Source of the DNA: Brevundimonas huaxiensis
GTDB taxonomy: Bacteria > Pseudomonadota > Alphaproteobacteria > Caulobacterales > Caulobacteraceae
Length of the DNA stretch: 64,000 nt
NCBI RefSeq assembly: GCF_014218725.1
Contig: NZ_JABBJE010000007.1
Location: 62,001 to 126,000, forward strand
Direction: 5' to 3'
The position numbers were made by a program, and so were the translations under genes. Positions 608-59,274 of this stretch are shown piece by piece (the stretch's first letter is position 1; each line of letters opens with the position of its first letter). Below the pieces are notes generated by a model, which did not search any database, was not told the origin of the DNA, and saw only the letters and a program-made list of their open reading frames with translations.

Positions 608-1407
608 GACAACCGCCCGCCGACGCGGATCGGCTCGACCCGCACGGCCAGCCCAGTCCGGTCGTCCGTCTCGACGAAGACCCCGCATACCGTCGCCGGG
701 CCGGACGCGGGCATGTAGCGGCCGCCGGAAATCCGGGTGGTGAAGCGGCGCAGCGGCTCTTCCTTCTCGTTGCCGATCACGCTGTCGTAGTCGCAGCAGC
801 CGCCGGCGTCGGTCTGATAGGCCGTGCCGCCGGGCAGGATTTGGCAGTCGGCGGTGGGCACATGGGTGTGTGTGCCGACCACCAGTGACGCGCGCCCGTC
901 GCAGAAATGGCCCATCGCCATCTTCTCGGACGTGACCTCGGCATGCATGTCCACGATCACGGCGTCCGCCACCGCGCCGAGCGGCGCCGCGGCCAGCTCG
1001 CGCTCCACCGCCCCGAACGGGTCGTCCATCGGGTCCATGTGCACCCGGCCCAGCACGTTCATGACCAGGACCGTTCGGCCCGAATGGGTCTCGAACAGAT
1101 TGGCCCCGGCGCCCGGCGCATCCATGAGACGCGGATAGTTGGCCGGCCGGATCAGGCGCGGCTCACGCACAATATAGGTCAGGGCCTCGCGCTGGTCCCA
1201 GCTGTGGTTGCCCAGCGTCAGGCAGTCGGCGCCGGCCATGAACAGCTCGCGCGCCGTGTTCTCGGTGATGCCGAAGCCGCCCGCGGCGTTCTCCGCATTC
1301 ACGACCACGAAGTCGAGTTTCAGGTCCCGCTTCAGGCCCGGAAGATGATCGCTGATGCCGTCACGGCCGGATTTGCCGATGACGTCGCCGAAAAATGCCA
1401 GTCTCAT
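586..1407 (-). CDS. YmdB-like metallophosphoesterase (TIGR00282 family)
   Basis: A 273-aa protein of the YmdB/TIGR00282 calcineurin-like phosphoesterase family, which in other bacteria hydrolyses 2',3'-cyclic nucleotides and affects RNA turnover. Metal ligands are visible: Asp8 in FFGD, Asn37-Glu39 in VNAEN, the GNHSWD motif at 66-71, His155 in VDMHAE, and the final GTHTH pair at His180/His182. The length is normal for the family. It begins 10 bases after the 5-formyl-THF cyclo-ligase stop, so the two are probably co-transcribed. The cellular role in alphaproteobacteria is not established. Confidence 0.9.
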   Translation of the reverse strand: MRLAFFGDVIGKSGRDGISDHLPGLKRDLKLDFVVVNAENAAGGFGITENTARELFMAGADCLTLGNHSWDQREALTYIVREPRLIRPANYPRLMDAPGAGANLFETHSGRTVLVMNVLGRVHMDPMDDPFGAVERELAAAPLGAVADAVIVDMHAEVTSEKMAMGHFCDGRASLVVGTHTHVPTADCQILPGGTAYQTDAGGCCDYDSVIGNEKEEPLRRFTTRISGGRYMPASGPATVCGVFVETDDRTGLAVRVEPIRVGGRLSQAIPVV

Positions 1408-1417
1408 GCGAAAAGTC

Positions 1418-1966
1418 TCATTCGAAAGCCGTATAGCCGGTCTCGGTCAGAACGCCATGCAGTCGAATGTCGTGCGGCTCCAGCGCTAGCCGCTCGACCC
1501 TTTGGCCGGCGTAGGCGAAACCGATGCGGATGGCGTCGGGTCGCGCGGCGAAGGTCCGGTCATAATAGCCGCCGCCCTGCCCCAGGCGCCCGCCCTGATA
1601 GTCAAAGGCCAGCAGCGGCGTCAGGATCAGGTCCGGCAGGACGACCTCCGCCAGCGGCAGCGGCGCGGGGCATCCGGCGGCGTCCATCTCCAGCGGTTCG
1701 CCGGGCGACCAGGCGCGGAACGCCATCGGCGCGTCGCGCTGGACCACGACCGGCAGGCACAGCCGGCGGCCCGCCGCCTCCAGCGCGGCGGCCAGGGCGT
1801 CGGTGTCCAGCTCCGACCCCATGGCGCGATAGAGCGCGACGATCCGAACGGCGGGAAGCGCTTCGGCATGGTCCGCCGCCCGGCGGGCGGCCAGCGGATC
1901 GACCTGGGCTAGACGCTTGCGCAAGGCGCGGGCGGCCGATCGAAGTTCATGTTTGTCCTGGATCAT
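1418..1966 (-). CDS. 5-formyltetrahydrofolate cyclo-ligase
   Basis: A 182-aa 5-FCL (YgfA/MTHFS family), which converts 5-formyl-THF to 5,10-methenyl-THF with ATP. The C-terminal signature GRLGQGGGYYDR at about 127-138 is the family's phosphate-binding motif. The chosen ATG at 1966 gives an N-terminus (MIQDKHELRSAARALRKRL) typical of the family; an upstream in-frame ATG at 1990 would add eight residues and run into the RNA candidate just upstream. A 6S RNA gene directly before 5-FCL is a conserved arrangement in proteobacteria. Confidence 0.9.
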   Translation of the reverse strand: MIQDKHELRSAARALRKRLAQVDPLAARRAADHAEALPAVRIVALYRAMGSELDTDALAAALEAAGRRLCLPVVVQRDAPMAFRAWSPGEPLEMDAAGCPAPLPLAEVVLPDLILTPLLAFDYQGGRLGQGGGYYDRTFAARPDAIRIGFAYAGQRVERLALEPHDIRLHGVLTETGYTAFE

Positions 1967-1989
1967 CGAACCGCCCCTACGCGTGCTCA

Positions 1990-2165
1990 TGCAGGGAGCC
2001 GCCGCGCGGCGAGCGATAGCACACCACAGAGAGAGGGTGGCGGCGCCGCGCGAACCGTGAAGAACGTTTAAATCCTCTCGACCTGGGTAGCCAGGTGGGC
2101 TCCGTATGCCCAAGCCCTCGAGCCCGGACAGGGACAGATCCCGTAGAGTGAATTAAGGTCAGAAG
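1990..2165 (-). ncRNA. ssrS: Putative 6S RNA (SsrS)
   Basis: The roughly 296-base gap between zapA and the 5-FCL gene has no convincing protein gene, yet on the minus strand it holds strong local hairpins: GGGCU/AGCCC around 2106-2126, ACCTGG/CCAGGT around 2088-2103, and GC-rich complementary arms near both ends. zapA - 6S RNA - ygfA is the known order in many proteobacteria, and 6S RNA binds sigma-70 RNA polymerase holoenzyme in stationary phase. The identity rests on position plus structure; I could not run a covariance model. The ends are approximate. Confidence 0.6.
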
Positions 2166-2262
2166 GATATGTTGTCTTCGACGTGAGCCGCAGCATGACC
2201 CGCCGTCGATCAAGATAGGCCTTCACCGGCCCCGACGCCAGCATCCGCAGCGGAATAATCGC

Positions 2263-2586
2263 CTAGAGGTTCTGGGCGATCTTTTCGATTCGCGCGGCGA
2301 CCGCGTTCAGCGCCTCGGCGACCCCGTCCGTCGAAGCCGCCGCCGGCGCTGTCGCTGACGAAGGCCCCGCCCTGCCGGCGTTCAGCCGCGCCTCGTGCAG
2401 TTCGTCGGCCAGGATCAGCGCGGACATCAGAAACAGCCGCAGATCGCCGACATGGCCCACGTCGCCTGCGACCTGACGCACCTGATTGTCGAACTGTTTG
2501 GCCAGGATGCGGACCCGCTCTTCCTGCCCGTCGGCGCAGCCCACCGCATAGGGGCGACCGTTGACCTCGACCGTCACCGTCGCCAT
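2263..2586 (-). CDS. zapA: Cell division protein ZapA
   Basis: A 107-aa ZapA, the small protein that binds and bundles FtsZ filaments at the division site. The N-terminal domain (MATVTVEVNGRPYAVGC... at 1-20, then the helix with ILAKQFDNQVRQVAG) and the following long helix (LRLFLMSALILADEL, 49-63) match the family. An Ala/Ser/Pro linker precedes a C-terminal helix. The ATG overlaps the TGA of the upstream DUF4164-like gene (TGATG), indicating translational coupling. The frame stays open far upstream, antisense to tkt, but that extension is coincidental. Confidence 0.92.
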   Translation of the reverse strand: MATVTVEVNGRPYAVGCADGQEERVRILAKQFDNQVRQVAGDVGHVGDLRLFLMSALILADELHEARLNAGRAGPSSATAPAAASTDGVAEALNAVAARIEKIAQNL

Positions 2587-2834
2587 CAGCCGGCCTCGCT
2601 TTCGGCCAGGACTTCGCGCACGGCCTGGGCGGCGCGGCCCAGCGCCTCGGACGCCTCGCGCCCGGCGGCCTCCAGTTCGGCCACGCGCTGATCTGTGGCG
2701 CGCGGGGCGAACAGATCGTCGTCCGCGATCGCGGGCGCCGAGGCGGGCCGCGCCTTCAGCTCCAGAATCTTGCGTTCCAGTTCGGCCAGGGCGCGGTCGA
2801 TACGCGCCCGTGCGGCCGTGGTGGCGTCTGCCAT
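2586..2834 (-). CDS. Small coiled-coil protein, DUF4164-like
   Basis: An 82-aa mostly helical protein (ARIDRALAELERKILELKAR, then QRVAELEAAGREASEALGRAAQ) likely to form a coiled coil. Genes of this kind annotated DUF4164 commonly sit directly before zapA in Caulobacteraceae; a role with ZapA in division is inferred from coupling only. The ATG at 2834 is preceded by GGAGCG. The stop overlaps the zapA start. The domain name is from memory of the neighbourhood and is less certain than the gene itself. Confidence 0.75.
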   Translation of the reverse strand: MADATTAARARIDRALAELERKILELKARPASAPAIADDDLFAPRATDQRVAELEAAGREASEALGRAAQAVREVLAESEAG

Positions 2835-2928
2835 CGGTCGCTCCTTTAGATTCCGTATAGAAGCCGAGGACGCGCCGGGGTAAAGGGGCGCGCCCCCTTT
2901 TTCCGCCTTCCCAACAGAGGTCTCCACA

Positions 2929-4920
2929 GTGACCGACGCCAAAACCGCACCAAAGGCCACGCCCGAGCAGATGGCGAACGCCATCCGCGTCCTCGCCATG
3001 GACGGCGTTGAAAAGGCCAAGTCCGGCCACCCCGGCATGCCGATGGGCATGGCCGACGTCGCCACGGTGCTGTTTTCCCGCTTCCTGAAGTTTGACGCCT
3101 CGCGCCCCGACTGGGCTGACCGCGACCGCTTCATCCTGTCGGCCGGCCACGGCTCGATGCTGATCTACGCCCTGCTGCACCTGACGGGCTATAAGGGCGC
3201 GACGAAGGAAGAACTGTCGAACTTCCGTCAGTGGGGCTCCAAGACCGCCGGTCACCCGGAATACGGCCATATGCCGGGCGTCGAGGTCACGACCGGCCCG
3301 CTGGGCCAGGGCCTGGCCACTTCGGTCGGTTTCGCCATGGCCGAGCGCCATCTGGCGGCGAAGTATGGCGACGATCTGGTCGATCACCGCACCTGGGTCA
3401 TCGCCGGCGACGGCTGCCTGATGGAAGGCGTGTCGCAGGAAGCCATCGCGCTCGCCGGCCGCTACAAGCTGAACAAGCTGCACGTCCTGTGGGACGACAA
3501 CGAGATCACCATCGACGGCAAGGTCTCCCTGTCGGATGCGACCGACCAGAAGGCCCGCTTCAAGGCGGCCGGTTGGGCGGTCAAGGCGATCGACGGCCAC
3601 GACATGAACGCCATCAAGGGCGCGATGAAGTGGGCCATGCGTCAGGACAAGCCCACCCTGATCGCCTGCAAGACCAAGATCGGCAAGGGCGCCGCCACGA
3701 TGGAAGGCAGCCACAAGACGCACGGTGCGGCCCTGGGCGCCGCCGAGATCGCCGCCACGCGCCTGGGCCTGGCTTGGGATCACGATCCGTTCGAAATGCC
3801 CCAGACCATCGCCGACGCTTGGAAGAAGGTCGGCCGTCGCGGCGCCAAGGACCGCAAGAAGTGGGAGGCCCGCCTCGACGCCTCGTCCCAGGCCGCCGAT
3901 TTCACCCGCGCCATGAAGGGCGACTTGCCCGAGGCCGCCTTCGACGCCCTGAACGCCAAGATCGCCGAACTGGTCGAGACCCAGCCGGCCCAGGCGACGC
4001 GCCAGTCGTCGGGCGCGGCGCTGGACGAACTGTTCGCCGCCATTCCCGAACTGGTCGGCGGCTCGGCCGACCTGACCGGCTCGAACAACACCTTCGTCAA
4101 GGGTACGCCGATCCTGGATGCGCCGACCTATGAAGGTCGCTACGTCAACTGGGGCATCCGCGAGTTCGGCATGGCCGCAGCCATGAACGGACTGGCCCTG
4201 CACGGCGGGGTCATTCCCTACGGCGGCACCTTCATGGTGTTTTCGGACTATAGCCGCCCGGCCATCCGCCTGGGCGCCCTGATGGGCGTGCGCGCCATCC
4301 ATGTCCTGACCCACGACTCGATCGGCCTGGGCGAAGACGGCCCGACGCACCAACCGGTCGAACATCTGGCGGCCCTGCGCGCCATCCCCAACCTGATGGT
4401 CTTCCGCCCCGCCGACACCATCGAGGCCATGGAATGCTGGCAGGTCGCCCTGCAGACCAAGACCGCGCCGTCGGCCCTGGCCCTGTCGCGCCAGAAGACC
4501 CCGGCCGTCCGCACCGTCGCCACGACCGAAAACCTGTCCGCCAAGGGCGCCTATGAGATCAAGGCCGCCAATGGCGAGGCCCAGGCCACACTGTTCGGCG
4601 CAGGCACCGAACTGGCCCTGGCGCTGAAGGCCGCCGAGACGCTGGAAGCCGAAGGCGTGGCCACCCGCGTCGTCTCGGCGCCCTCGTTCGAACTGTTCGA
4701 ACAGCAGGACGCCGCCTACCAGGCCTCGGTCATCGGTCGCGGCACGGTCCGCGTCGCCGTGGAAGCCGCGATCAAGCAAGGCTGGGAACGCTTCATCGGC
4801 GAAGACGGCGCCTTCATCGGCATGACCGGCTTTGGCGCCTCCGCCCCGGCCGAGGTTCTGTACGAGAAGTTCGGCATCACCTCGGACGCCATCGTCGCGG
4901 CGGTCAAGGCGCGGCTGTAA
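2929..4920 (+). CDS. tkt: Transketolase
   Basis: A full-length 663-aa transketolase that moves two-carbon ketol units between sugar phosphates in the non-oxidative pentose phosphate pathway, using thiamine diphosphate and a divalent metal. Visible motifs are SAGHGSMLIYALLHL near 70-85, the ThDP-binding GDGCLMEGVSQEA near 161-173, SADLTGSNNT in the middle domain, and the catalytic-Glu segment VNWGIREFGMA near residue 412. A GTG at 2929 starts the protein after CAACAGAGG, diverging from the zapA cluster. A strong terminator follows the stop. Confidence 0.97.
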   Translation: MTDAKTAPKATPEQMANAIRVLAMDGVEKAKSGHPGMPMGMADVATVLFSRFLKFDASRPDWADRDRFILSAGHGSMLIYALLHLTGYKGATKEELSNFRQWGSKTAGHPEYGHMPGVEVTTGPLGQGLATSVGFAMAERHLAAKYGDDLVDHRTWVIAGDGCLMEGVSQEAIALAGRYKLNKLHVLWDDNEITIDGKVSLSDATDQKARFKAAGWAVKAIDGHDMNAIKGAMKWAMRQDKPTLIACKTKIGKGAATMEGSHKTHGAALGAAEIAATRLGLAWDHDPFEMPQTIADAWKKVGRRGAKDRKKWEARLDASSQAADFTRAMKGDLPEAAFDALNAKIAELVETQPAQATRQSSGAALDELFAAIPELVGGSADLTGSNNTFVKGTPILDAPTYEGRYVNWGIREFGMAAAMNGLALHGGVIPYGGTFMVFSDYSRPAIRLGALMGVRAIHVLTHDSIGLGEDGPTHQPVEHLAALRAIPNLMVFRPADTIEAMECWQVALQTKTAPSALALSRQKTPAVRTVATTENLSAKGAYEIKAANGEAQATLFGAGTELALALKAAETLEAEGVATRVVSAPSFELFEQQDAAYQASVIGRGTVRVAVEAAIKQGWERFIGEDGAFIGMTGFGASAPAEVLYEKFGITSDAIVAAVKARL

Positions 4921-49480: not shown

Positions 49481-49506
49481 GCCGGTCTCTCCCTCTTTCC
49501 CGGTGT

Positions 49507-49842
49507 TCACAGCATCTTCTCCAGCGAGGCCGACAGGCCGCGCCATTCCACGGCGAGCCGTTCCAGCATCGCCTCCCCGCGCGACGACAGGCGGTAGAAC
49601 CGCTTCTTGCGCCGCTCCTCCTCGCGCCATTCGCTGTCCAGCAGCCCCTGGCTCTCCAGCCGACGCAGCAGCGGATAGAGGGTGCTCTCCTCCATCTCGA
49701 CCCCGACCTCGCCCAAGGCGACCCGCAGCGAATAGCCGTATTGCTCGCGCCGCAAGCTCGCCAGCACGGCCAGGATCAACGACCCCCGCCGCAGCTCCAG
49801 CCGCAGACTCTCGAACAGCAACGCCTCGTCGTTCTCGCTCAC
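49507..49842 (-). CDS. PadR-family transcriptional regulator
   Basis: A 111-aa PadR-s2-type repressor: a winged helix (LILAVLASLRREQYGYSLRVALGEVGVEMEESTLYPLLRRLESQGLLDSEWREEERRKKRFYRLSSRGEAML) and a short C-terminal dimerisation helix. The GTG at 49842 follows GGAGG with six bases spacing and is preferred over a GTG at 49878 that lies inside the operator. It precedes the HAAS gene. PadR proteins bind short palindromes in their own promoter; one is present upstream. Confidence 0.88.
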   Translation of the reverse strand: MSENDEALLFESLRLELRRGSLILAVLASLRREQYGYSLRVALGEVGVEMEESTLYPLLRRLESQGLLDSEWREEERRKKRFYRLSSRGEAMLERLAVEWRGLSASLEKML

Positions 49843-49861
49843 CCGCCACCTCCGTGCGCCG

Positions 49862-49902
49862 CATAGTGTGTGATACACAGTGTATGGGGCATACTGTGTG
49901 AG
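49862..49902. promoter_or_regulatory. Operator candidate for PadR
   Basis: Centre: ATACAC-A-GTGTAT (49873-49885), a perfect 13-bp palindrome. It is flanked by related half-sites CATAGTGTGTG on the left and CATACTGTGTG on the right. The set lies 20-60 bases upstream of the PadR start codon, a position that fits self-repression of the padR-HAAS operon. Its distance to uvrB (about 80 bases) leaves possible cross-influence. Confidence 0.6.
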
Positions 49903-49979
49903 GATGTCAAGCTAGGCCGACCGCAACTAGGCGGAGGTCAGCGCGCTATGGCGGGAGACATCCTCACGCACTAAGTTCT

Positions 49980-49994
49980 GTTCATGAACCGTTC
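49980..49994 (+). promoter_or_regulatory. LexA (SOS) box overlapping the uvrB start codon
   Basis: GTTC-N7-GTTC at 49980-49994 matches the alphaproteobacterial LexA operator exactly, and the uvrB ATG is the first three bases of the spacer. uvrB is an SOS gene in many bacteria. No Shine-Dalgarno stands before the ATG, so the mRNA may be leaderless with the box covering the transcription start. Confidence 0.72.
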
Positions 49995-52323
49995 TTCGAC
50001 GCCGAAGCCCGCCGCCGCCAAGCCGGCCAAGCCCGTTCACGTGCCAAATCCGGGGGTGCAGGAGGCGTCGGCCGCCTTCCTGCGCGACACCGGAAAAATG
50101 CCGATGTTCGCTCCGGTCGCCGGGCCGCGCCTGACGCCGGAGGAGCCGGTCGCCGCGCCCGCCGACTGGGTGCCGCACCGCCCCTCGCACGAGGGCAAGA
50201 AGAAGGGCGGCCGCTTCCGCTTGGAAACCAAATACACGCCCGCCGGCGACCAGCCCGCCGCCATCGCCGAACTAGTGGCCCAGGCACAGGCTGGGGATCG
50301 CGACCAGGTGCTGCTGGGCGTCACCGGCTCGGGCAAGACCTTCACCATGGCCAAGGTGATCGAGGAAACCCAGCGCCCTGCCCTGATCCTGGCGCCGAAC
50401 AAGACGCTGGCGGCCCAGCTCTATTCCGAGTTCAAATCGTTCTTTCCCGACAACGCGGTCGAATACTTCGTCAGCTACTACGACTACTACCAGCCAGAAG
50501 CTTATGTTCCGCGTACGGATACGTACATTGAGAAAGATTCAAGCATCAATGAGCAGATTGACCGGATGCGGCACTCTGCGACGCGAGCTATACTAGAACG
50601 GGAAGACGTCATTGTTGTGGCGTCAGTGTCCTGTATTTACGGGATCGGGTCGGTTGAGACCTATACGGCGATGACGTTCACGCTGAAGGTGGGGGACCAG
50701 ATCGACGAGGCGAAGCTGCGGGCGGATCTGATCGCGCTGCAGTACAAGCGCAACGACCTGAACTTCGACCGGGGGATGTTCAGGAAGCGTGGCGATGTGA
50801 TCGAAATCTTCCCGGTCCACCTGGAGGATCGGGCCTGGCGGATCAGCCTGTTTGGGGACGAGCTGGAGGCGATCCAGGAGTTCGATCCGCTGACGGGCAA
50901 GAAGACGGCCGATCTGAACGAGATCACCGTCTATGCGGCCAGCCACTATGTGACCCCGCGCCCGACGCTGAACCAGGCCGCCGCTGGCATCAAGGCGGAG
51001 CTGAAGGAGACGCTGGACTGGATGGTCGAGAACGGCAAGCTGCTGGAGGCGCAACGCCTGGAGCAACGCACCCGCTTCGACCTGGAGATGATGGAGGCCA
51101 CCGGCAGCTGCGCCGGCATCGAGAACTACAGCCGCTGGCTGACCGGCCGCGCGCCGGGCGAGCCGCCGCCGACCTTCTTCGAATACATCCCCGACAACGC
51201 CCTGCTGTTCGTGGACGAGAGCCACGTCACCATCGGCCAGATCAACGGCATGTTCCGGGGCGACTACCGCCGCAAATCGACGCTGGCGGAATACGGCTTC
51301 CGCCTGCCCTCCTGCATCGACAACCGCCCGCTGAAGTTCGAGGAGTGGGAGGCCATGCGCCCCCAGACGGTACACGTCAGCGCCACCCCCGGCCCGTGGG
51401 AGATGGAACAGGCGGGCGGCGTCTTCGTCGAGCAGGTGATCCGCCCCACCGGGCTGATCGACCCGCCGGTCGAGATCCGCCCCGTCTCGGGCAAGACCCG
51501 CAACCAGGTCGACGACGTCATCGACGAGGTCAAGGCGACGACGGCCAAGGGCTATCGCAGCCTGGTCACCACCCTGACCAAGAAGATGGCCGAGGACCTG
51601 ACCGAATATATGCACGAGCAGGGCATCCGGGTTCGCTACATGCACTCCGACGTCGACACGCTGGAGCGGATCGAGATCCTGCGCGACCTGCGGCTGGGGA
51701 CGTTTGACTGCCTGATCGGGATCAACCTGCTGCGCGAGGGCCTGGACATCCCCGAGTGCGGCCTGGTCGCCATCCTGGATGCGGACAAGGAGGGCTTCCT
51801 GCGCTCGGAAACCTCATTGATCCAGACCATCGGCCGCGCCGCGCGCAACGTGGACGGCCGCGTCATCCTGTACGCCGACCGCATGACCGGCAGCATGGAG
51901 CGGTCCATCGCCGAGACGGACCGCCGTCGCGAACGGCAGATGGCCTACAACGCCGAACACGGCATCACGCCCGAAACGGTCAAGCGCGACATCAAGGAGA
52001 TCATGGACAGCCCCTATGAGTCGCGCGAGATGGATCGCCTGACCAAGCCGGGCGTGGCCGAAGCCTCCAAACCCTTCGTCGGCTCCAACTTCCAGGCCGC
52101 CCTGCGCGACCTGGAAGGCCGCATGCGCGAGGCCGCCTCCAACCTGGAGTTCGAGGAAGCCGGCCGCCTGCGCGACGAGATCAAGCGCATGAAGCTGATG
52201 GACCTGGAGTTCGCCAACGAAGCCCTGACCGGCGCGGGGGAAGCGGTGGACAAGTCGGCGCCCAAACGCTGGCGCGCCGAGGCGGCGGCGGAGGCGCAGG
52301 AGCGGTTCAGGAAGGGGCGATAA
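49984..52323 (+). CDS. uvrB: Excinuclease ABC subunit B
   Basis: A 779-aa UvrB, the damage-verifying helicase-like subunit of UvrABC repair. After an 80-residue Pro/Ala-rich N-terminal extension come Walker A ([10 protein letters not shown]), the beta-hairpin region ([21 protein letters not shown]), the DESH motif ([10 protein letters not shown]), motifs V and VI ([22 protein letters not shown]) and the C-terminal UvrC-binding UVR coiled coil ([29 protein letters not shown]). Codon use changes abruptly at about 50500-50650. A LexA box covers the start. Confidence 0.95.
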
Positions 52324-52339
52324 AGAGCATTTCGAAGCC

Positions 52340-54234
52340 TCATTCGACGCCAAATATAGATGCCATCTTCACAGTGTTCTGGGTTGCGATAGCTAGCTCC
52401 TTATTAGCATACGACGCGGCATTTTTCATTATTCCGCCAACATAACCGTACAAAAAGCTATCAGTCATAGCGTCGATAAGATTTTCCTTCATCAAATCCG
52501 AGAAATTTACAACTTTACCACCCTTTGCCCTCATTAGATCAACCCGTAATGTTGACTCTTTAGCACTAAAGACAATTCTATCTGCGTTTGCCAGTCGCAT
52601 GCCGCTGTAAACGTCCGATACTACGGACTCCAGATTATCTCTCGTCCCCCTTGGACTTACAGAGCGACCTTTGGCGTCCTTACCAGAAAGGCGCTCAAAC
52701 GCTTTTGCGACATATTCCAGCTCACCGCCCTCGTGCAGCAAGATGTGAAGAGTCCGGTCTTTCTTTCCAGCAATACTCACATACGCAATCTCAAACCTAA
52801 TGTCGGCGACTTCCATAAACGCCGCGATATTCTTTTTATTGGCTACATTTTTTAACACTGATTGGTATTTCACTGCCATTGGAACTACGAACTCATCACG
52901 CAGAAGCTCTGGATTCATATCCCTTAGCATTATGACCGCCTGTTCATGCGGCCTCTTCACCAATTCCGTTACAATATTTTTAAAGTTCTTTTTTGTAACG
53001 AACGCGAGACAATACGCCGCAAAATATTCTTGAAAAGAGCGGTGGGGAAATACGTAATCATTTCCCTCTTTGATCATTATGCAAACCGCACTACATAGAT
53101 CATCTATATATGGCGAAGTTCCGAACTTTGATTGATTCAGTTCTATAGCAGAGCGAATGTACTTTTCCGCCGTAGAAGATGAGAATGCAAATTTTTGCTC
53201 ATAAAATGTTAGTAGTCAAAAATATGAGAACACTCTTTTAAATTCGTCTTCGTCTTTAGTAGACTGGAATTGTCTCTTAAATCCTCCTGGCTTATATCTA
53301 TCGTGTCGCTTATAAAGGGCATCGTAAGCTAACTCATAAAACTGATGCATTTTGTCTGGTATTTCGTAGTTTTGACTAAATGCCAATAACATCATTGATG
53401 CCAGTAGTGGATTAGATAAAAAACTACTGTTAGAACTATAGAACGCATCTTCTTTTATTTTATCTATAAATTTGGACTTGATTGTGTCGTCAAAGTCTAC
53501 TTTTTGTATCAACTCTACTGTATCAAGTCTCGTAAGAGGCGCAACTTCAGCAACATCAAAATTCTGCCAAGACGCGAACTGCTGATCTGGACGGCTTGAG
53601 ACTATGACGCTGGTTAACGGGTAATCTTCTGTCAGCTCTAGTACTGCTTGTTGTACCTTGTCCTTTATGGACTCTGTTAACTCGTCATATCCATCAAGAA
53701 TGACGACGAACTCGCCCTTCTCCAGACCACGTCGAAACGACTGTATGGATAGCTTGGACTTTCCACGGGTGAGAGTATGAAATAGGTAAGGCGATATATC
53801 CGCCTGTGTTATTTTATTTAGGTTTCTTAGCTCTATGAAGATAGGTATGCGTCCTCCGCTGTCCACAAAAAGTGACAACCAGAGGTAACGCATGAACATA
53901 CTTTCCCAGCGCCTCCCGTCCCGGTAATTATGATGCGCTGGACAGAGTTTTTAATTAGTTCAACCGCCTCGTACTGATCGAACTTATTCTGCCTAAATGA
54001 GAATCTTTGAGTAGAATATATTGAAAGAAAGTCAGATTGAGTTGCTGGATTTATTAGCGTCTTTATCTTTATACACTTATTAAATGTTGCTTCCAGATGT
54101 GGCGAAAGGTCAGTTTTCACCCGTTCTTGCTTACCAAAATCAAACGCCCTGCTAACGTGGTCGGCAAACAGTTTTGTTAGTGCCGCTTGAAAAGCGGGTT
54201 TCGCCAGCGCGCCTGCTGTCGCAATATCCAGCAT
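52340..54234 (-). pseudogene. NACHT-domain NTPase (putative anti-phage STAND protein), broken
   Basis: An AT-rich gene encoding about 630 aa if repaired. The ATG at 54234 has GGAGG upstream. Residues 1-105 are an N-terminal helical region; Walker A is GTGGAGK; then LRNLNKI, Walker B VVILDGYDEL and the sensor VIVSSRPDQQFASW are typical of NACHT; the C-terminal part (FPHRSFQEYFAAYCLAF and beyond) follows the usual NACHT winged-helix region. Two lesions: one missing A after the Walker A lysine codon (about 53898-53902; restoring it gives GKSMFMRYL), and an in-frame TGA at 53216-53218. Base composition differs from all neighbours. Confidence 0.85.
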
Positions 54235-54462
54235 ACTTAGACCCTCCAAAATCAATCCAAGATTGCGGGGATTTCGCAATATGCGCAAGGGCTTGTAGGG
54301 AATCCAGCGGGGCTAGCACCTCATGGATGCGCGCAATGTATCTGGTGGCCGAGCACCCATGAGGCGCGAGCACATTTACGTGGGAATCGTCAGTTTGACG
54401 GCGGCGGTCTATATACGAGACGTATCGCTCGCTACGCGCACGGCTTCCGACGACACCTGCCC

Positions 54463-55215
54463 TCACAACTCGTCCAGCGTCTTCTCCCATTCTTCCATCG
54501 TCACTCTCCCACGCAGGGGGCCGAGGAAGAGGTCGAGGCCTTGGGAGATACGGCGGTCCTGTTCGCGTTCGATGACGGGGTCGAGGCCGGCGGCGCGGAG
54601 CTGGTCCTCAAGGGCGGCGATGCGGCGCTCCAGCTGGACGCGGCGGGCCAGTTGGGCGTGGCCCCATTCGGTGTTGGCGCGCTCCAGCTTCTGCTTCGCC
54701 TGCCAGTACTGGCCGCGCAGTTCCCAGTCGCTCCTGTCGCTGGTGTTCATGGCAAAGCGGCGCTCGGCCTCGGCCTCGTTGGTCAGGATGTCGAAGACCA
54801 GTTGCAGGGGGGCGTTCTTCACCGTCAGGCGGGCGGCGCGGCCGGGGCCGTCGCGGTCGGCCAGTTTGCGATAGGTCTCGGCCAGAGCCGCCAGGGCGCG
54901 GGCCTGGGCGAAGTCCTGGGCGTGCAGGGCGCGGCCCGAGGCCTGGGCGGCGGCGCGGGCCAGGGCGGCCGGGTCATTGGGGTCGTCAGGCGACAGGTCG
55001 GCGGCCTCCTGAGGCGAAAGGGGCTGGGGCGCAGGCGTCGCGGCCTCGCTGCGCGGATGGCGGGACCAGCCCTCCTTCGTCGCGCGGGCGCGGATGGAGG
55101 CCTCGGTCACGTCGTGGCGGGCGGCGACGGTCTTGGCGTCGAGGCCGGACAGATAGTCCTTTCGGACCTGGGTCCAGACCTCGGGCGGTTTGATCTTGTA
55201 GCGGCGTTTTTCCAT
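54463..55215 (-). CDS. Helix-turn-helix protein of unknown function, long form
   Basis: A 250-aa protein. Residues 8-52 hold a helix-turn-helix (KPPEVWTQVRKDYLSGLDAKTVAARHDVTEASIRARATKEGW) that looks like a GcrA or terminase small-subunit type domain. The middle is Ala/Pro-rich and helical; the end is a long charged coiled coil (QAKQKLERANTEWGHAQLARRVQLERRIAALEDQLRAAG). The helix-turn-helix is shared with the divergent gene at 55380. No function recognised. Normal GC content shows that it is outside the AT-rich NACHT segment. Confidence 0.75.
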   Translation of the reverse strand: MEKRRYKIKPPEVWTQVRKDYLSGLDAKTVAARHDVTEASIRARATKEGWSRHPRSEAATPAPQPLSPQEAADLSPDDPNDPAALARAAAQASGRALHAQDFAQARALAALAETYRKLADRDGPGRAARLTVKNAPLQLVFDILTNEAEAERRFAMNTSDRSDWELRGQYWQAKQKLERANTEWGHAQLARRVQLERRIAALEDQLRAAGLDPVIEREQDRRISQGLDLFLGPLRGRVTMEEWEKTLDEL

Positions 55216-55379
55216 GCGGGCATTATGGGGCGGTCTCTACCCCAGGCCGGGAGAAGGCCGATTTTCGAGGCTAGAGACTTGATTTTCCACATCGCGAGAT
55301 GTCAGGGGTCACGCGCCAGCTGTGCATGAGGCGCGGGTGCGACCGATGATGACGCAGGGGCGTGCGACACCCCCGTCCC

Positions 55380-55943
55380 ATGAGCCAGGGCATACATCGC
55401 AAGATCCGGCCGGACGCCGTCTGGGCCGAGGTTCGCAAGGCGTGGGAGGACGGCGAGACCGCGCGGTCCGTGGCCGCACGCTATGACGTCGGGGTGCCCG
55501 CCCTGTGGAAGCGGCGCGAGGCGGAGGGCTGGAAACGGCCCGAACCGACGCTGGCGCCGATCGAGCCGGCCGAGGGCTGGGACCGGCATATCCAGGCGCG
55601 GCGCGACGCCTTCAACGCCCAGCTGGAGGACGCGCGGGCGCTGGCGGAATGTCTGGCGGCGGCGATGACGGACGAGCGGCTGACGCAGGCGCCGCACTGG
55701 CATATTCCGTGGCTGTATCACTGGCGCGCGACGCATCTGGGGCCCGAGGCGACGGCGCGGGACCGGGAGCGGGCGATCGAGACGGGCCAGCCGTGGGCCG
55801 AGCGGTTCTGGGACGACGACGGGGCGTTGAAGCCGCTGGCGTGGCTGGATCTGGAGATGGCGCGGCTGCATCCCGAGGACTGGCGCGCGGCCATCGGCCT
55901 GCCCGACGGATTGCCCGAGGCGGCGACGCGATACGCGCCCTGA
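55380..55943 (+). CDS. Helix-turn-helix protein of unknown function, short form
   Basis: A 187-aa protein with the N-terminal helix-turn-helix KIRPDAVWAEVRKAWEDGETARSVAARYDVGVPALWKRREAEGW, clearly related to that of the divergent upstream gene. The remainder (HIQARRDAFNAQLEDARALAECLAAAM ... PHWHIPWLYHWRATHLGPEA ... LDLEMARLHPEDWRAAIGLPDGL) is helical with conserved Trp/His patches and matches nothing I know. ATG 55380 is chosen over 55362 because homology begins there. Confidence 0.72.
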   Translation: MSQGIHRKIRPDAVWAEVRKAWEDGETARSVAARYDVGVPALWKRREAEGWKRPEPTLAPIEPAEGWDRHIQARRDAFNAQLEDARALAECLAAAMTDERLTQAPHWHIPWLYHWRATHLGPEATARDRERAIETGQPWAERFWDDDGALKPLAWLDLEMARLHPEDWRAAIGLPDGLPEAATRYAP

Positions 55944-56219
55944 GGGGCGCCGCAGTTGACTTATCGGCGATAAGCGCCCATTTGCGCGGCGTCGCACACT
56001 CGCGATCTCCGGCGTCTCCAGCGCGTGTGGGTCCCCTTCGGACCTGTCTGTAGAAGCCGCCGGCCCCTCATATCCATTCGCTGCCCGGACACGCGGGGCG
56101 GCGCCCGATCCACCCCGCAGGCCTCCTCCCCGAGGCCCCGTCGGGACTGGCGGTGCGCGGCCCGACGGCGTCATGCCATGGCTGATCGCGCCCTGCCGCT
56201 ACGCGAAAGATACATTGCT
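55944..56219 (+). promoter_or_regulatory. Long leader region of the DEAD-box helicase gene
   Basis: This 276-base gap starts with a TTGACT (55956-55961) that overlaps a perfect palindrome CTTATC-ggc-GATAAG (55960-55974), then about 200 bases of GC-rich sequence without a credible gene. RNA helicase genes of this type often have long leaders acting as cold-sensitive control regions; here that is an inference from gap length only. No -10 element is clear. Confidence 0.4.
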
Positions 56220-57710
56220 GTGAGCACCACATTCGAATCCATGGGCCTGAACAAGGCCCTGCTGCAGGCCCTGGCCTCGACCGGCTATACCAAGCCGACC
56301 CCGATCCAGGAAAAGGCCATCCCCGACGTCATGGCCGGCAAGGACCTGCTGGGCATCGCCCAGACCGGCACCGGCAAGACCGCCGCCTTCGCCCTGCCGA
56401 TCCTGCATCGCTTGGCCGAAAACCGCATTCCGCCCAAGCCGCGCACCACGCGCGTGCTGGTCCTGAGCCCCACGCGCGAGCTGGCCACCCAGATCGGCGA
56501 CAGCTTCAAGGCCTACGGCGCACACCTGGGCTTTAGGGTCGCGGTGATCTTCGGCGGCGTGAAATACGGCGCCCAGGAGCGGGCCCTGCAACAGGGTCTG
56601 GACATCCTGATCGCCGCGCCCGGCCGCCTGCTGGACCACATCCAGCAGAAGAACCTGGACCTGTCCTCGACCGAGATCTTCGTGCTGGACGAAGCCGACC
56701 AGATGCTGGACCTGGGCTTCATCAAGCCGATCCGCCAGATCGTGTCCAAGATCCCGGCCAAGCGCCAGAACCTGTTCTTCTCGGCGACCATGCCGTCCGA
56801 GATCGGCAAGCTGGCCGGCGAACTGCTGAAGGATCCGGTCAAGGTCCAGGTCACGCCGCAGTCGACCACCGTTCAGCGCATCAGCCAGTCGGTCGTCTAT
56901 ATCGAACAGGGCAGGAAGCGCGCCCTGCTGACCGAGATGTTCTCGGATCCCGAATACACGCGCTGCCTGGTCTTCACCAAGACCAAGCACGGCGCCGACA
57001 AGGTCGCGGCCTATCTGGAAGCCGGCGGCGTCGAGGCCGGCGCCATCCACGGCAACAAGAGCCAACCCCAGCGTGAACGCACCCTGGAAGTCTTCAAGAA
57101 GGGCAAGCTGCGCGTCCTGGTCGCCACCGACATCGCCGCGCGCGGCATCGACGTGGACGGCGTCTCGCACGTCGTGAACTTCGAACTGCCGCACGTGCCG
57201 GAAAGCTATGTCCACCGCATCGGCCGCACCGCGCGGGCGGGCAAGGACGGCACCGCCGTCAGCTTCGTCGCCGGCGACGAGATGAAGCTGCTGCGCGACA
57301 TCGAAAAGGTCACGCGCCAGAAGATCCCCGCCATCGACCGCCGCAACGACAAGTCCCTGGGCCAGCTGGACGCCACCATCATGGCCACCGGCGTCGGCAA
57401 GAAGGCGACCCTGCCCGAGCGCGAAGGCGGCGAGCGCAACGAAGGCGGACGGGGTGGTCGCGGCCGTCGCAATCCCCACCGCGACGGCGTGCGTCCGGAA
57501 GGCGGCGGCCAGCCGCACCGCCAGCGTCGCAACCGTCCGGGCGAAACCCCGGCGGCCCCGCGTCCCGAGCGCGTCTACAACCCCCTGGCCGGCGAGCGCG
57601 TGCCCTCCATCAATGACAACGCCAAGCCGGCGGAAGGTCAGATGAAGCGCCGCCCCCGTCGCCGTCCCTCGAACGGCGGCAAGGGCTACGGCGGCGCCGC
57701 CAAGGGCTGA
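56220..57710 (+). CDS. DEAD-box ATP-dependent RNA helicase (RhlE-like)
   Basis: A 496-aa RNA helicase. Motifs in order: Q motif (FESMGLNKALLQALASTGYTKPTPIQ), motif I AQTGTGKTAAF, Ia PTRELATQI, II VLDEADQMLDLGF, III FSATMP, IV LVFTKTKHGADKVA, V ATDIAARGIDV, VI HRIGRTARAG. The tail from about 395 is Arg/Gly/Pro-rich and unstructured, as in RhlE proteins that bind the degradosome or ribosome precursors. The start is GTG 56220 by homology; an in-frame ATG at 56178 would add 14 residues. Confidence 0.92.
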   Translation: MSTTFESMGLNKALLQALASTGYTKPTPIQEKAIPDVMAGKDLLGIAQTGTGKTAAFALPILHRLAENRIPPKPRTTRVLVLSPTRELATQIGDSFKAYGAHLGFRVAVIFGGVKYGAQERALQQGLDILIAAPGRLLDHIQQKNLDLSSTEIFVLDEADQMLDLGFIKPIRQIVSKIPAKRQNLFFSATMPSEIGKLAGELLKDPVKVQVTPQSTTVQRISQSVVYIEQGRKRALLTEMFSDPEYTRCLVFTKTKHGADKVAAYLEAGGVEAGAIHGNKSQPQRERTLEVFKKGKLRVLVATDIAARGIDVDGVSHVVNFELPHVPESYVHRIGRTARAGKDGTAVSFVAGDEMKLLRDIEKVTRQKIPAIDRRNDKSLGQLDATIMATGVGKKATLPEREGGERNEGGRGGRGRRNPHRDGVRPEGGGQPHRQRRNRPGETPAAPRPERVYNPLAGERVPSINDNAKPAEGQMKRRPRRRPSNGGKGYGGAAKG

Positions 57711-57717
57711 CCTAGAT

Positions 57718-57859
57718 CCTCCCCCGTTTGCGGGGGAGGGGGACCGCGAAGCGGTGGAGGGGGCGAACGTCGCACGGCACCAAATGTCGGAGATCGAGCC
57801 CGTTTCCGCCCCCTCCACCCCGCTTCGCGCGGTCCCCCTCCCCCGCTGCGCGGTGGAGG
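57718..57859. repeat. Composite intergenic inverted repeat, copy B
   Basis: The same type of element as at 6587-6723. The left half carries CCTCCCCC, then the core GGACCGCGAAGCGGTGGAGG; the right half is its imperfect inverse complement (GGTCCCCCTCCCCCGC and GGTGGAGG). The core of 27 bases is identical between the copies. It lies between the convergent helicase and FadL-type genes, 51 kb from copy A. Confidence 0.8.
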
Positions 57860-57862
57860 AAT

Positions 57863-57897
57863 AAAAAAACGGCGGCTCCTGCGAAGGAGCCGCCGTT
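57863..57897 (-). terminator. Rho-independent terminator after the FadL-type gene
   Basis: A perfect 12-bp stem, AACGGCGGCTCC and GGAGCCGCCGTT with a 6-base loop, is followed on the minus strand by seven T. It stops the leftward porin transcript 28 bases after its stop codon. Confidence 0.88.
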
Positions 57898-57924
57898 CTC
57901 ATGTCAGCCGGGGCTGAGCGGACC

Positions 57925-59274
57925 TCAGAAGTTCCAGGTCGCGCCCAGGGAGAAGCCGACGCCCGAGCCTTGGGCTTCGCCGCGCAGGTTCGAGATGACC
58001 AGGCCGTTGCCATAGACGTCGCGGGTGTCGTTGATCGTCGCGGTGTCGATGTCGATGTAGGTCACGGCGCCGTCGAAGGTCATGTTGCCGATCGTCTTGG
58101 ATAGACCGGCGGCGTAGAGCCAGCGATCGCCGTCCGGGATACGGGCGGTGCGGTGATCGTCCGGCGTCGGGGTCGGGTCGTAGCCTAGGCCGGCGCGGAA
58201 GGTCATGGACGGATCGATCTTGTAGTCGAAGCCGATCGCGCCGGTGGTGACATCGTCATAGTCCTGAACGATGGTGGAGCCGCCGCCGGTGTAGGCGACG
58301 CGGATGGCGTCGAACTCGCTCCAGCCGATCTGATTGACCTGGGCGTTCAGGGTCAGGCGATCGTTGACGGCGTAGCGGGCCGAGACGGTGGCGTACCAAG
58401 GCGTGGTGAACGACGCGCCGCCATCGGTCGAGACGTTGGCGCCGGCCAGGACGCCAGTCAGGCCCGAGATGTTCACCGAACCTTCCAGCTCGTGCTCGAT
58501 CTTGGAGCGGTAGGACAGACCCAGGTCCAGCTTGCCGAAGTGCATCTGGGCGCCGGCGTTCCATCCGTAATCCCAGCCGTCGCCTTCCAACTGGTTGCGA
58601 CCGTCGGTCGACGGCGAAACGACATAGGCCGGCGACAGGACGGCCGGGATCGGCACGTTCGGCAGGGCGGACGACAGGGTCGCCTTGGCGTACTGGGCGT
58701 CGAAGCCGACGCCGAGGTCCAGCCAGTCGGTGACCGTCATGGCGGCGACCAGGCTGACGTTGGCCGAGCGCAGTTCCGACGTCAGCGCGTCGTAACGGGC
58801 GAAGTCGTCGGGCAGATATTTGGTGGTGAAGTTGTAGGGCGCCTGGACGGCCAGGCCGACATTGAAGCGGTCGCCGATCGGCATGGAGACGGCGAAGTTC
58901 GGCACAATGCCGCTTTCGACCACGTCATGCACGTGCGGGTCGCCGTTGACGGGGGCCGAACGGCTGACGACGCCGACGCCCGGAACCGGGACGTTGTAGG
59001 TCAGGGTCGAACCGGTGTTGTCGACGTCGGAGTCCAAGATCAGGCCGTGGGCGCCGAGGTAGACTTCACGCTGGGTTCCGGCGATGGCGGCGGGGTTCCA
59101 CCACAGCGACTGGACGCCCTTGTCGGCGCCGACGCCGGCGTTGGCGCGACCCTGGCCGCGGGTCGATTGTTCCTGGACATAGAAGGAGCCGGCCATGGCC
59201 GGGGCGGCGACGCCGGCCAGCAGGGCGGTCGTCATGGCGATCCCGCCCATGCGGGCGAAGTTCCTGGAGGTCAT
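57925..59274 (-). CDS. OmpP1/FadL-family outer membrane transport protein
   Basis: A 449-aa outer membrane beta-barrel for hydrophobic compounds such as long-chain fatty acids. A signal peptide (to about residue 29, ALLAGVAAPAMAG) precedes SFYVQEQSTRGQGRANAGVGADKGVQSLWWNPAA, the N-terminal hatch signature of the family. Alternating aromatic strands continue to the terminal GFSLGATWNF, the outer membrane insertion signal. ATG 59274 (AGGTG upstream) is chosen; GTG 59283 is also in frame. The ligand is not certain. A terminator follows. Confidence 0.93.
   Translation of the reverse strand: MTSRNFARMGGIAMTTALLAGVAAPAMAGSFYVQEQSTRGQGRANAGVGADKGVQSLWWNPAAIAGTQREVYLGAHGLILDSDVDNTGSTLTYNVPVPGVGVVSRSAPVNGDPHVHDVVESGIVPNFAVSMPIGDRFNVGLAVQAPYNFTTKYLPDDFARYDALTSELRSANVSLVAAMTVTDWLDLGVGFDAQYAKATLSSALPNVPIPAVLSPAYVVSPSTDGRNQLEGDGWDYGWNAGAQMHFGKLDLGLSYRSKIEHELEGSVNISGLTGVLAGANVSTDGGASFTTPWYATVSARYAVNDRLTLNAQVNQIGWSEFDAIRVAYTGGGSTIVQDYDDVTTGAIGFDYKIDPSMTFRAGLGYDPTPTPDDHRTARIPDGDRWLYAAGLSKTIGNMTFDGAVTYIDIDTATINDTRDVYGNGLVISNLRGEAQGSGVGFSLGATWNF

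Follow-up and report, generated by a model that had tools for sequence, protein, structure and literature searches.

A probably inactivated bNACHT-type gene as the current occupant of a putative defence-cassette slot beside uvrB in Brevundimonas

Bacterial NACHT (bNACHT) proteins of clade 14, for example bNACHT02 and bNACHT12, end in a SNaCT C-terminus and have no discernible effector domain, as far as the consulted part of the describing paper goes; the same text states that DnaJ is needed by bNACHT25 and not by the two clade-14 proteins tested (PMC12169576). For defence hotspots, the consulted part of a Pseudomonas aeruginosa study describes two sites, cDHS1 and cDHS2, which are additive, flanked by tRNA or tmRNA genes and 26 and 6 kb in median size, with transposases as the commonest mobile gene and with no detectable mobile gene in 29% and 47% of sites, respectively (PMC10250203). 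Its discussion also names Vibrio and E. coli hotspots as examples of replacement islands that hold short, non-homologous defence cassettes (PMC10250203). According to the available text of a further study, the median occupancy of E. coli hotspots is 8%, and their cargo usually sits on mobile elements (PMC10121019). The locus described here, found in a 64-kb stretch of Brevundimonas huaxiensis DNA (the window), touches both subjects: with good confidence it is read as an inactivated bNACHT-type STAND NTPase gene that currently occupies a mostly filled, single-cassette defence slot beside uvrB, whose contents are probably exchanged by recombination in the flanks.

The AT-rich NACHT gene sits on the minus strand between two convergent genes, uvrB and the gene at 54463-55215, hereafter the right-hand gene (Table 1). 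Its GC content is 0.419 over 52340-54234, against 0.663 for the whole window, and the lowest value found by a window scan for any 1895-bp stretch outside 51900-54900 is 0.604. The NACHT motifs GTGGAGK, LDGYDEL and SSRPD occur in order, with Walker A in a separate frame: ORF1 and ORF2 differ in frame, the change falling directly after Walker A, and ORF2 and ORF3 share one frame and are split by a single TGA. An earlier note on this DNA had described NACHT motifs in low-GC DNA between uvrB and a conserved-looking gene, as well as these two separate lesions; both descriptions are borne out, the latter directly in the reading frames and the former by the GC values and by the conservation of the flank. 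The span that it proposed, 52330-54300, contains the gene and is slightly too long at the N-terminal end, where the probable start is the ATG at 54234 with GGAGGG upstream; this gives about 630 codons, matching the 595-642 aa of the intact relatives. Eight relatives could be aligned with the second and third pieces and two with the first. The gene is regarded as a broken copy that should not produce a full receptor.

Table 1. Features of the uvrB-adjacent slot in the window and of the NACHT gene that it holds
Feature	Coordinates	Strand	Basis
uvrB, left border of the slot at its own stop codon	49984..52323	+	ORF of 779 aa; homology with close relatives ends at the stop
NACHT gene, entire span, with frame change and in-frame TGA	52340..54234	-	ORFs, frames, alignment
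NACHT gene ORF1, GTGGAGK close to its end	53833..54288	-	
N-terminal helical region and Walker A, first frame	53836..54234	-	alignment with intact relatives; ATG behind GGAGGG
NACHT gene ORF2, carrying LDGYDEL and SSRP (SSRPD)	53216..53899	-	
Remaining NACHT domain (LDGYDEL, SSRP, beginning of helical domains), second frame	53219..53899	-	sub-cut-off Pfam NACHT match; 45% identity to Mycoplana protein
In-frame TGA of NACHT gene	53216..53218	-	reading frames
NACHT gene ORF3, frame open back to 53215	52340..53077	-	
Winged-helix/HD2-like and short C-terminal region, same frame as preceding piece	52343..53215	-	weak NLRC4_HD2 match; alignment
Convergent flanking (right-hand) gene, 250 aa, right border of the slot at its own stop codon	54463..55215	-	93-98% identical in 10 close genomes

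Promoter and terminator scans gave counts near shuffle level (5 vs 3.4 and 2 vs 1.8), and the spacer at 54235-54462 has no homology in the other uvrB loci compared. The right-hand gene and its divergent neighbour at 55362-55943 are similar in their N-terminal sequence, a possible DNA-binding start, and NCBIfam gave no match for either.

Pfam NACHT matches the second piece alone at E 7.6e-4 (19.8 bits against a cut-off of 26.7) and the intact relative in genome G023 with 43.5 bits, and NLRC4_HD2 matches 52343-53077 weakly (E 0.036). A NACHT profile search of the organism's own genome gave no match at E<=0.001, as expected because Walker A lies in another frame. The earlier claim of horizontal acquisition is supported by the low GC, by the presence of relatives in only three of 131 genus genomes including its own (the others being G023, 37% identical, and G119, 24%), and by the finding of the nearest relatives in other orders. 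Three of 474 pattern matches in a collection of named genomes were confirmed, namely Mycoplana dimorpha (45%), a Rhodobacteraceae MAG (41%) and Rhizobium sp. 32-5/1 (43%), and class-wide five of 385 genomes, again including its own, match at E<=1e-30. Plasmid records with a relative number 150, all below 60% identity and 99 of them from Klebsiella; they include Bartonella (40%) and Agrobacterium, where the relatives adjoin genes annotated as RloB and TIR. The distant Klebsiella plasmid protein WP_015632533.1 (27% over about 209 residues) is one that we take to be bNACHT01. Two Vibrio phage records match the NACHT protein at 26%, and two viral-collection contigs carry relatives, one adjoining terminase-/portal-like ORFs and the other a recombinase-like ORF, as read from the ORFs. 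The relative beside the terminase-/portal-like ORFs, 38% identical and located at 1052-3091 of a 7-kb contig (L215), suggests carriage as phage cargo.

A 12-row tree, in which one branch is firm, groups the G023 protein with those of Agrobacterium and G494 (91/88, not counted as firm), and the window protein is closest by path to the Mycoplana, Rhizobium, Bartonella and Rhodobacteraceae proteins. The simpler reading of these sequence relationships is that NACHT genes reached the uvrB site in two separate arrivals, one in the window and one in G023. uvrB is present in three of the 11 loci with NACHT relatives (G023, Mycoplana and Rhizobium), and the NACHT genes of Mycoplana and Rhizobium do not abut it, lying about 0.9 kb and up to about 1.7 kb from its stop.

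AlphaFold2 was used to predict the fold of the intact relative from Mycoplana (second piece 45% identical, 7-row alignment), which served as input in place of the window's broken protein. The model has a mean pLDDT of 61, with residues 90-450 mostly at 65-91 (dips to 51-54) and most of both ends below 50; a preceding 5-sequence model, at pLDDT 48, was too poor for use. Foldseek places the Mycoplana model nearest to NOD2, NLRC4 and NLRP3 (best E 1.0e-13), and VIA-align 2 superposes it on NLRC4 with Z 25.7 and rmsd 3.9 over 379 aligned residues. A PDB search with the Mycoplana sequence gave no match. A viral structure library returned chiefly general ATPase matches, which ranked below one NLR-like phage protein. 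The model thus supports a predicted NACHT-HD1-WHD-HD2 core for the intact Mycoplana relative.

No known effector matches the short N-terminal region, and no effector domain was matched in the pieces, in the G023 relative or in seven further relatives (these seven by NCBIfam only), in agreement with what had been noted before. It does not follow that a killing mechanism would be new, as the earlier note had proposed, since bNACHT proteins of clade 14 that have no discernible effector domain are already described in the consulted part of the literature (PMC12169576). From the fold and the family, an intact copy would rest in an ADP-bound, closed state. Its C-terminal region might detect a cue of phage or of host damage, upon which the protein would exchange nucleotide and oligomerise; infection could then be stopped by the N-terminal helical region or by an unknown partner. 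The need for DnaJ differs among bNACHT proteins. Profile searches, which the earlier note had listed as a check, gave weak results: relatives match the antiphage NACHT-type models EruA (1.4e-8), DS8 (1.6e-7 to 8e-10) and PDC-S60 (3.7e-7), in each case far below cut-off, PADLOC models reach no better than E 0.03 on the three pieces of the window gene, and PADLOC gave no match for the Mycoplana relative. The anti-phage role claimed for the gene accordingly finds its support in the context of the slot, not in these models.

Occupancy of the uvrB-adjacent site was followed on the uvrB 3' side of 40 other genus genomes and the window (41 loci). Nineteen genomes were chosen by a match to the right-hand gene and the others by going down a list of uvrB-end similarity, skipping G070, G080, G051, G114, G091 and G092; the choice was made by flank similarity, by which time the gap lengths and the NACHT gene of G023 could be seen. 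At a fixed threshold, low-GC bins totalling at least 1 kb occur within 3 kb of the uvrB stop in 30 of 41 loci. In a two-sided count over 40 genomes, which leaves out G005 for want of 5' sequence, at least 1 kb of AT-rich DNA is found in 29 on the uvrB 3' side vs one on the 5' side, with a nominal Fisher p of 2e-11 that is only a guide because the genomes are related. This count supersedes a first one (18/21 on the 3' side vs 0/21 on the 5' side), which was biased because its genomes were picked after the cargo was known. The low-GC threshold is missed by 11 of the 41 loci, of which at least four hold cargo of higher GC (e.g., G062, G004, G066, G026) and others look ordinary throughout. Four loci (L091, L095, L099 and L100), from less closely related genomes whose right flanks differ, have no AT-rich DNA after uvrB and are possible empty forms of the slot. 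A tRNA-Arg gene directly follows uvrB in L091 (G113), one of five loci without an AT-rich insert.

uvrB forms one flank in all 41 loci, and the right-hand gene lies opposite in 20 of them, with 41-100% identity and a partial match in G023; other right flanks are found in the more distant genus genomes. From the uvrB stop to the right-hand gene, the 20 strongly matched loci measure 0.66-3.38 kb, mostly 1.7-3.4 kb and in one case 0.7 kb. Compared by eye, the 15 closest loci agree up to the uvrB stop, and 14 of them agree again from the stop of the right-hand gene. The exception is G023, whose right-hand gene matches over its first 97 residues only, so that the border is not at the stop codon. 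Inside the borders, over the 110 and about 207 bases compared by eye, common sequence was seen only between G127 and G018, which hold the same cassette. Between the window and G060, identity is 95.5% over 9 kb on the left and 96.7-97.3% on the right, and the two have zero match in between, and the comparison with G038 (91-97% identical) likewise shows zero match between the flanks. In L078, L079 and L068, short G+C-rich palindrome-like repeats lie just before the right-hand stop; these are possible recombination or terminator elements.

The cargo was called mechanically, as ORFs of at least 150 aa with GC below 0.615, and sorted into classes unlinked at E 1e-8; a few cargo ORFs may not be genes because the calls are mechanical. 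This gave 61 ORFs in 35 of the 41 loci, which fall into 27 unlinked classes, and 12 classes for the 15 closest loci. PADLOC, run on 29 proteins from 25 loci, reached E<=1e-15 in 14 loci and E<=1e-3 in 20, leaving six with weak matches and five without any. The strong matches comprise retrons (type II-A in G060 and G016, type VI in G083), PDC-M25 (G038), PDC-S39 (G116), PD-Lambda-2 (G069), PsyrTA/ShosTA (G125), type II restriction-modification (G112 and G109), DRT8 (G050), Ditto (G105), LmuB-like (G062), HEC-01 (G040) and DpdB-like (G005) proteins; it should be noted that several of these names denote candidate systems only and that general-ATPase or single-component matches do not prove a complete system. 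Pfam domains in the slots include SIR2 with nSTAND5 in G128, NACHT in G023, and, in G127, a DNA methylase accompanied by a DndB-like protein that scores below cut-off. The retron proteins of G060 and G016 are 53% and 32% identical, and the DNA outside the slot is 95-97% identical. The site is thus a hotspot with differing and often defence-related cargo, a feature that emerged from the occupancy check named in the earlier note, which had itself missed it. Two further observations concern individual cassettes. A two-gene cassette of a DndB/DpdB-like protein and an N6/N4 DNA methylase recurs in L072, L075 and L087 (G127, G018 and G030) with a weak PADLOC match, as a candidate system, and L076 (G128) encodes at 1451-3661 on the plus strand a 737-aa SIR2-like and nSTAND_NTPase5 protein to which no strong PADLOC model corresponds.

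Could the slot be nothing special? The border genes are convergent, so that an insertion harms neither, and the gap might be a harmless landing place that tolerates any foreign DNA without preference for defence, a reading with which the cargo lacking a PADLOC match (the partner gene in L088, and L090, L092, L096, L098, L161, L162 and L173) agrees. It is nevertheless unlikely, given the defence families matched at E<=1e-15 in more than half of the scanned loci and the state of a control convergent junction, rhlE/fadL-like, about 5.4 kb away. This junction, the sole one compared, was found in 14 of 21 genomes and lacking in seven; an AT-rich insert occurs in 0/14, the gaps being 103-226 bp in 10 genomes and 1.6-1.7 kb with ordinary GC in four (L137, L140, L141 and L143). 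The precision of both borders at the stop codons, together with the viral-collection carriers of NACHT relatives, one of them adjoining a recombinase-like ORF, could instead point to a dedicated mobile element, an integrase or transposon, that places cassettes at the uvrB end. We consider this improbable: no integrase, transposase or other recombinase family is found among 25 listed of the 28 Pfam families matched (1e-9, 68 proteins of the loci), the cassettes have no common ends by eye, and neither the 15 closest loci nor the window at 49500-58000 yielded a tRNA or tmRNA. Within 52200-54600 of the window no direct repeat of at least 14 nt spans the insert; the one direct repeat lies inside the right-hand gene, and the only inverted repeats are two chance-like 15-nt pairs.

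The lesions also admit other readings than decay. If the frame change or the TGA were programmed or recoded, by frameshifting or selenocysteine, the NACHT gene would be functional, and the retention of the other conserved motifs with only two lesions in about 630 codons would suit this; such recoding is, however, very hard to credit. The three best matches to the tRNA-Sec model, one of which alone exceeds the cut-off, are all tRNA-Ser (three of nine matches checked). A programmed stop common to the Bartonella plasmid copy was also rejected, that copy (L107 5653-7550) being broken by a frame change nearby and not at the same codon. The Rhizobium copy (L006 7557-9100) is likewise broken at another place, and the G494 relative (G494:C194:44976-46286) has an internal stop, all of which fits decay; this NACHT branch may be prone to inactivation. 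There is also a small chance that the organism carries an intact gene and that both lesions are sequencing or assembly errors, as the draft state of the genome (35 contigs) and the high conservation of the rest of the protein would allow, but this would require two independent and different changes in one gene, and both flanking genes are single ORFs.

Decay of a NACHT gene within an exchangeable defence slot remains the preferred reading, and a simple mechanism can be proposed for the exchange. A chromosomal fragment, which may travel by transduction, by natural transformation or in a gene transfer agent, would bring in a new cassette, and homologous recombination in the conserved flanks would put it in place of the old one. 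Recombination of this kind would need no integrase and would leave no scar. Since a full receptor is not expected from the window copy, the slot is probably between useful occupants in this genome. A gene-transfer-agent TIM-barrel marker was detected in 31 of the 41 genus genomes and is absent from the window's own genome; in G060 the match (G060:C1:1169303-1170177) is split over two frames. Caulobacter gene-transfer-agent particles hold about 8.3 kb, according to the consulted part of the source (PMC13236601), which would leave room for a 2-3 kb cassette and both flanks.

How far the slot extends beyond the genus was estimated from 20 genomes of the family and 40 of the class, taken mostly on longer contigs. 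Among other genera of the family, the AT-rich signal is present on the 3' side in 7/20 and on the 5' side in 0/20 (p 0.008). PADLOC on eight proteins of the seven family loci gave a dCTPase-family match (7.5e-151), a methyltransferase (1.7e-25) and weak SIR2-like and PDC-S33 matches, with no match for three of the loci. Class-wide enrichment is not significant (5/40 vs 1/40, p 0.20; of the 40, one lacks 3' sequence and another has a short stretch of it); the two class loci scanned hold an Old-type ATPase in one case and a type IIG restriction-modification gene in the other, and a class-wide uvrB hotspot is no more than suggested. It is tempting to speculate, as a tentative possibility that we hold to be rather less likely than its opposite, that the uvrB 3' end is an old, dedicated and mostly filled single-cassette immune slot of the family, perhaps of the alphaproteobacteria, in which cassettes are swapped from stop to stop by homologous recombination of core-gene fragments, a cassette with both flanks being small enough for a gene-transfer-agent particle. 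If true, defence genes would be traded through the slot without integrases, as in a shared market, and a broken occupant such as the window gene would be a cassette due to be replaced.

Specialists may find the slot of greater interest than the broken NACHT gene itself. It offers a simple hunting ground for new systems, 11 of the 25 scanned loci having weak or no PADLOC matches, and a clean test case for the movement of immune genes without integrases. The NACHT gene for its part adds a rare and repeatedly broken alphaproteobacterial branch to the bacterial NLR-like proteins. Among the papers listed in literature searches, with most subscription journals outside their scope, no description of the uvrB site was found.

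Set beside the described systems, the NACHT protein resembles clade-14 bNACHT proteins, as these are described in the consulted text, in its central NACHT domain, its short helical N-terminus without a known effector and its short C-terminus, the likeness being one of description; it differs from them in that the window copy is broken and its identity to the Klebsiella protein is low. As for the slot, it shares with cDHS1 and cDHS2, within the consulted account of those sites, the core-gene flanks, the mostly filled state, the varied defence content and the lack of a single mobilising element. Unlike them, it is short, usually holds one system, unstacked, and has no tRNA in its 15 closest loci. 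With the E. coli hotspots, as far as their available description reaches, it has in common a constant place on the chromosome and a varied defence cargo, whereas AT-rich DNA fills the site in 29 of 40 genomes and integrases are absent among the listed families. It also resembles the replacement islands, in which, as in the slot, non-homologous cassettes supplant one another; in contrast to the islands named in the consulted discussion, it lies on an alphaproteobacterial chromosome, beside uvrB. The defence hotspots of the compared papers, in the parts consulted, are associated with mobile elements or with landing sites of the tRNA type, and the uvrB slot is a short gap between convergent core genes.
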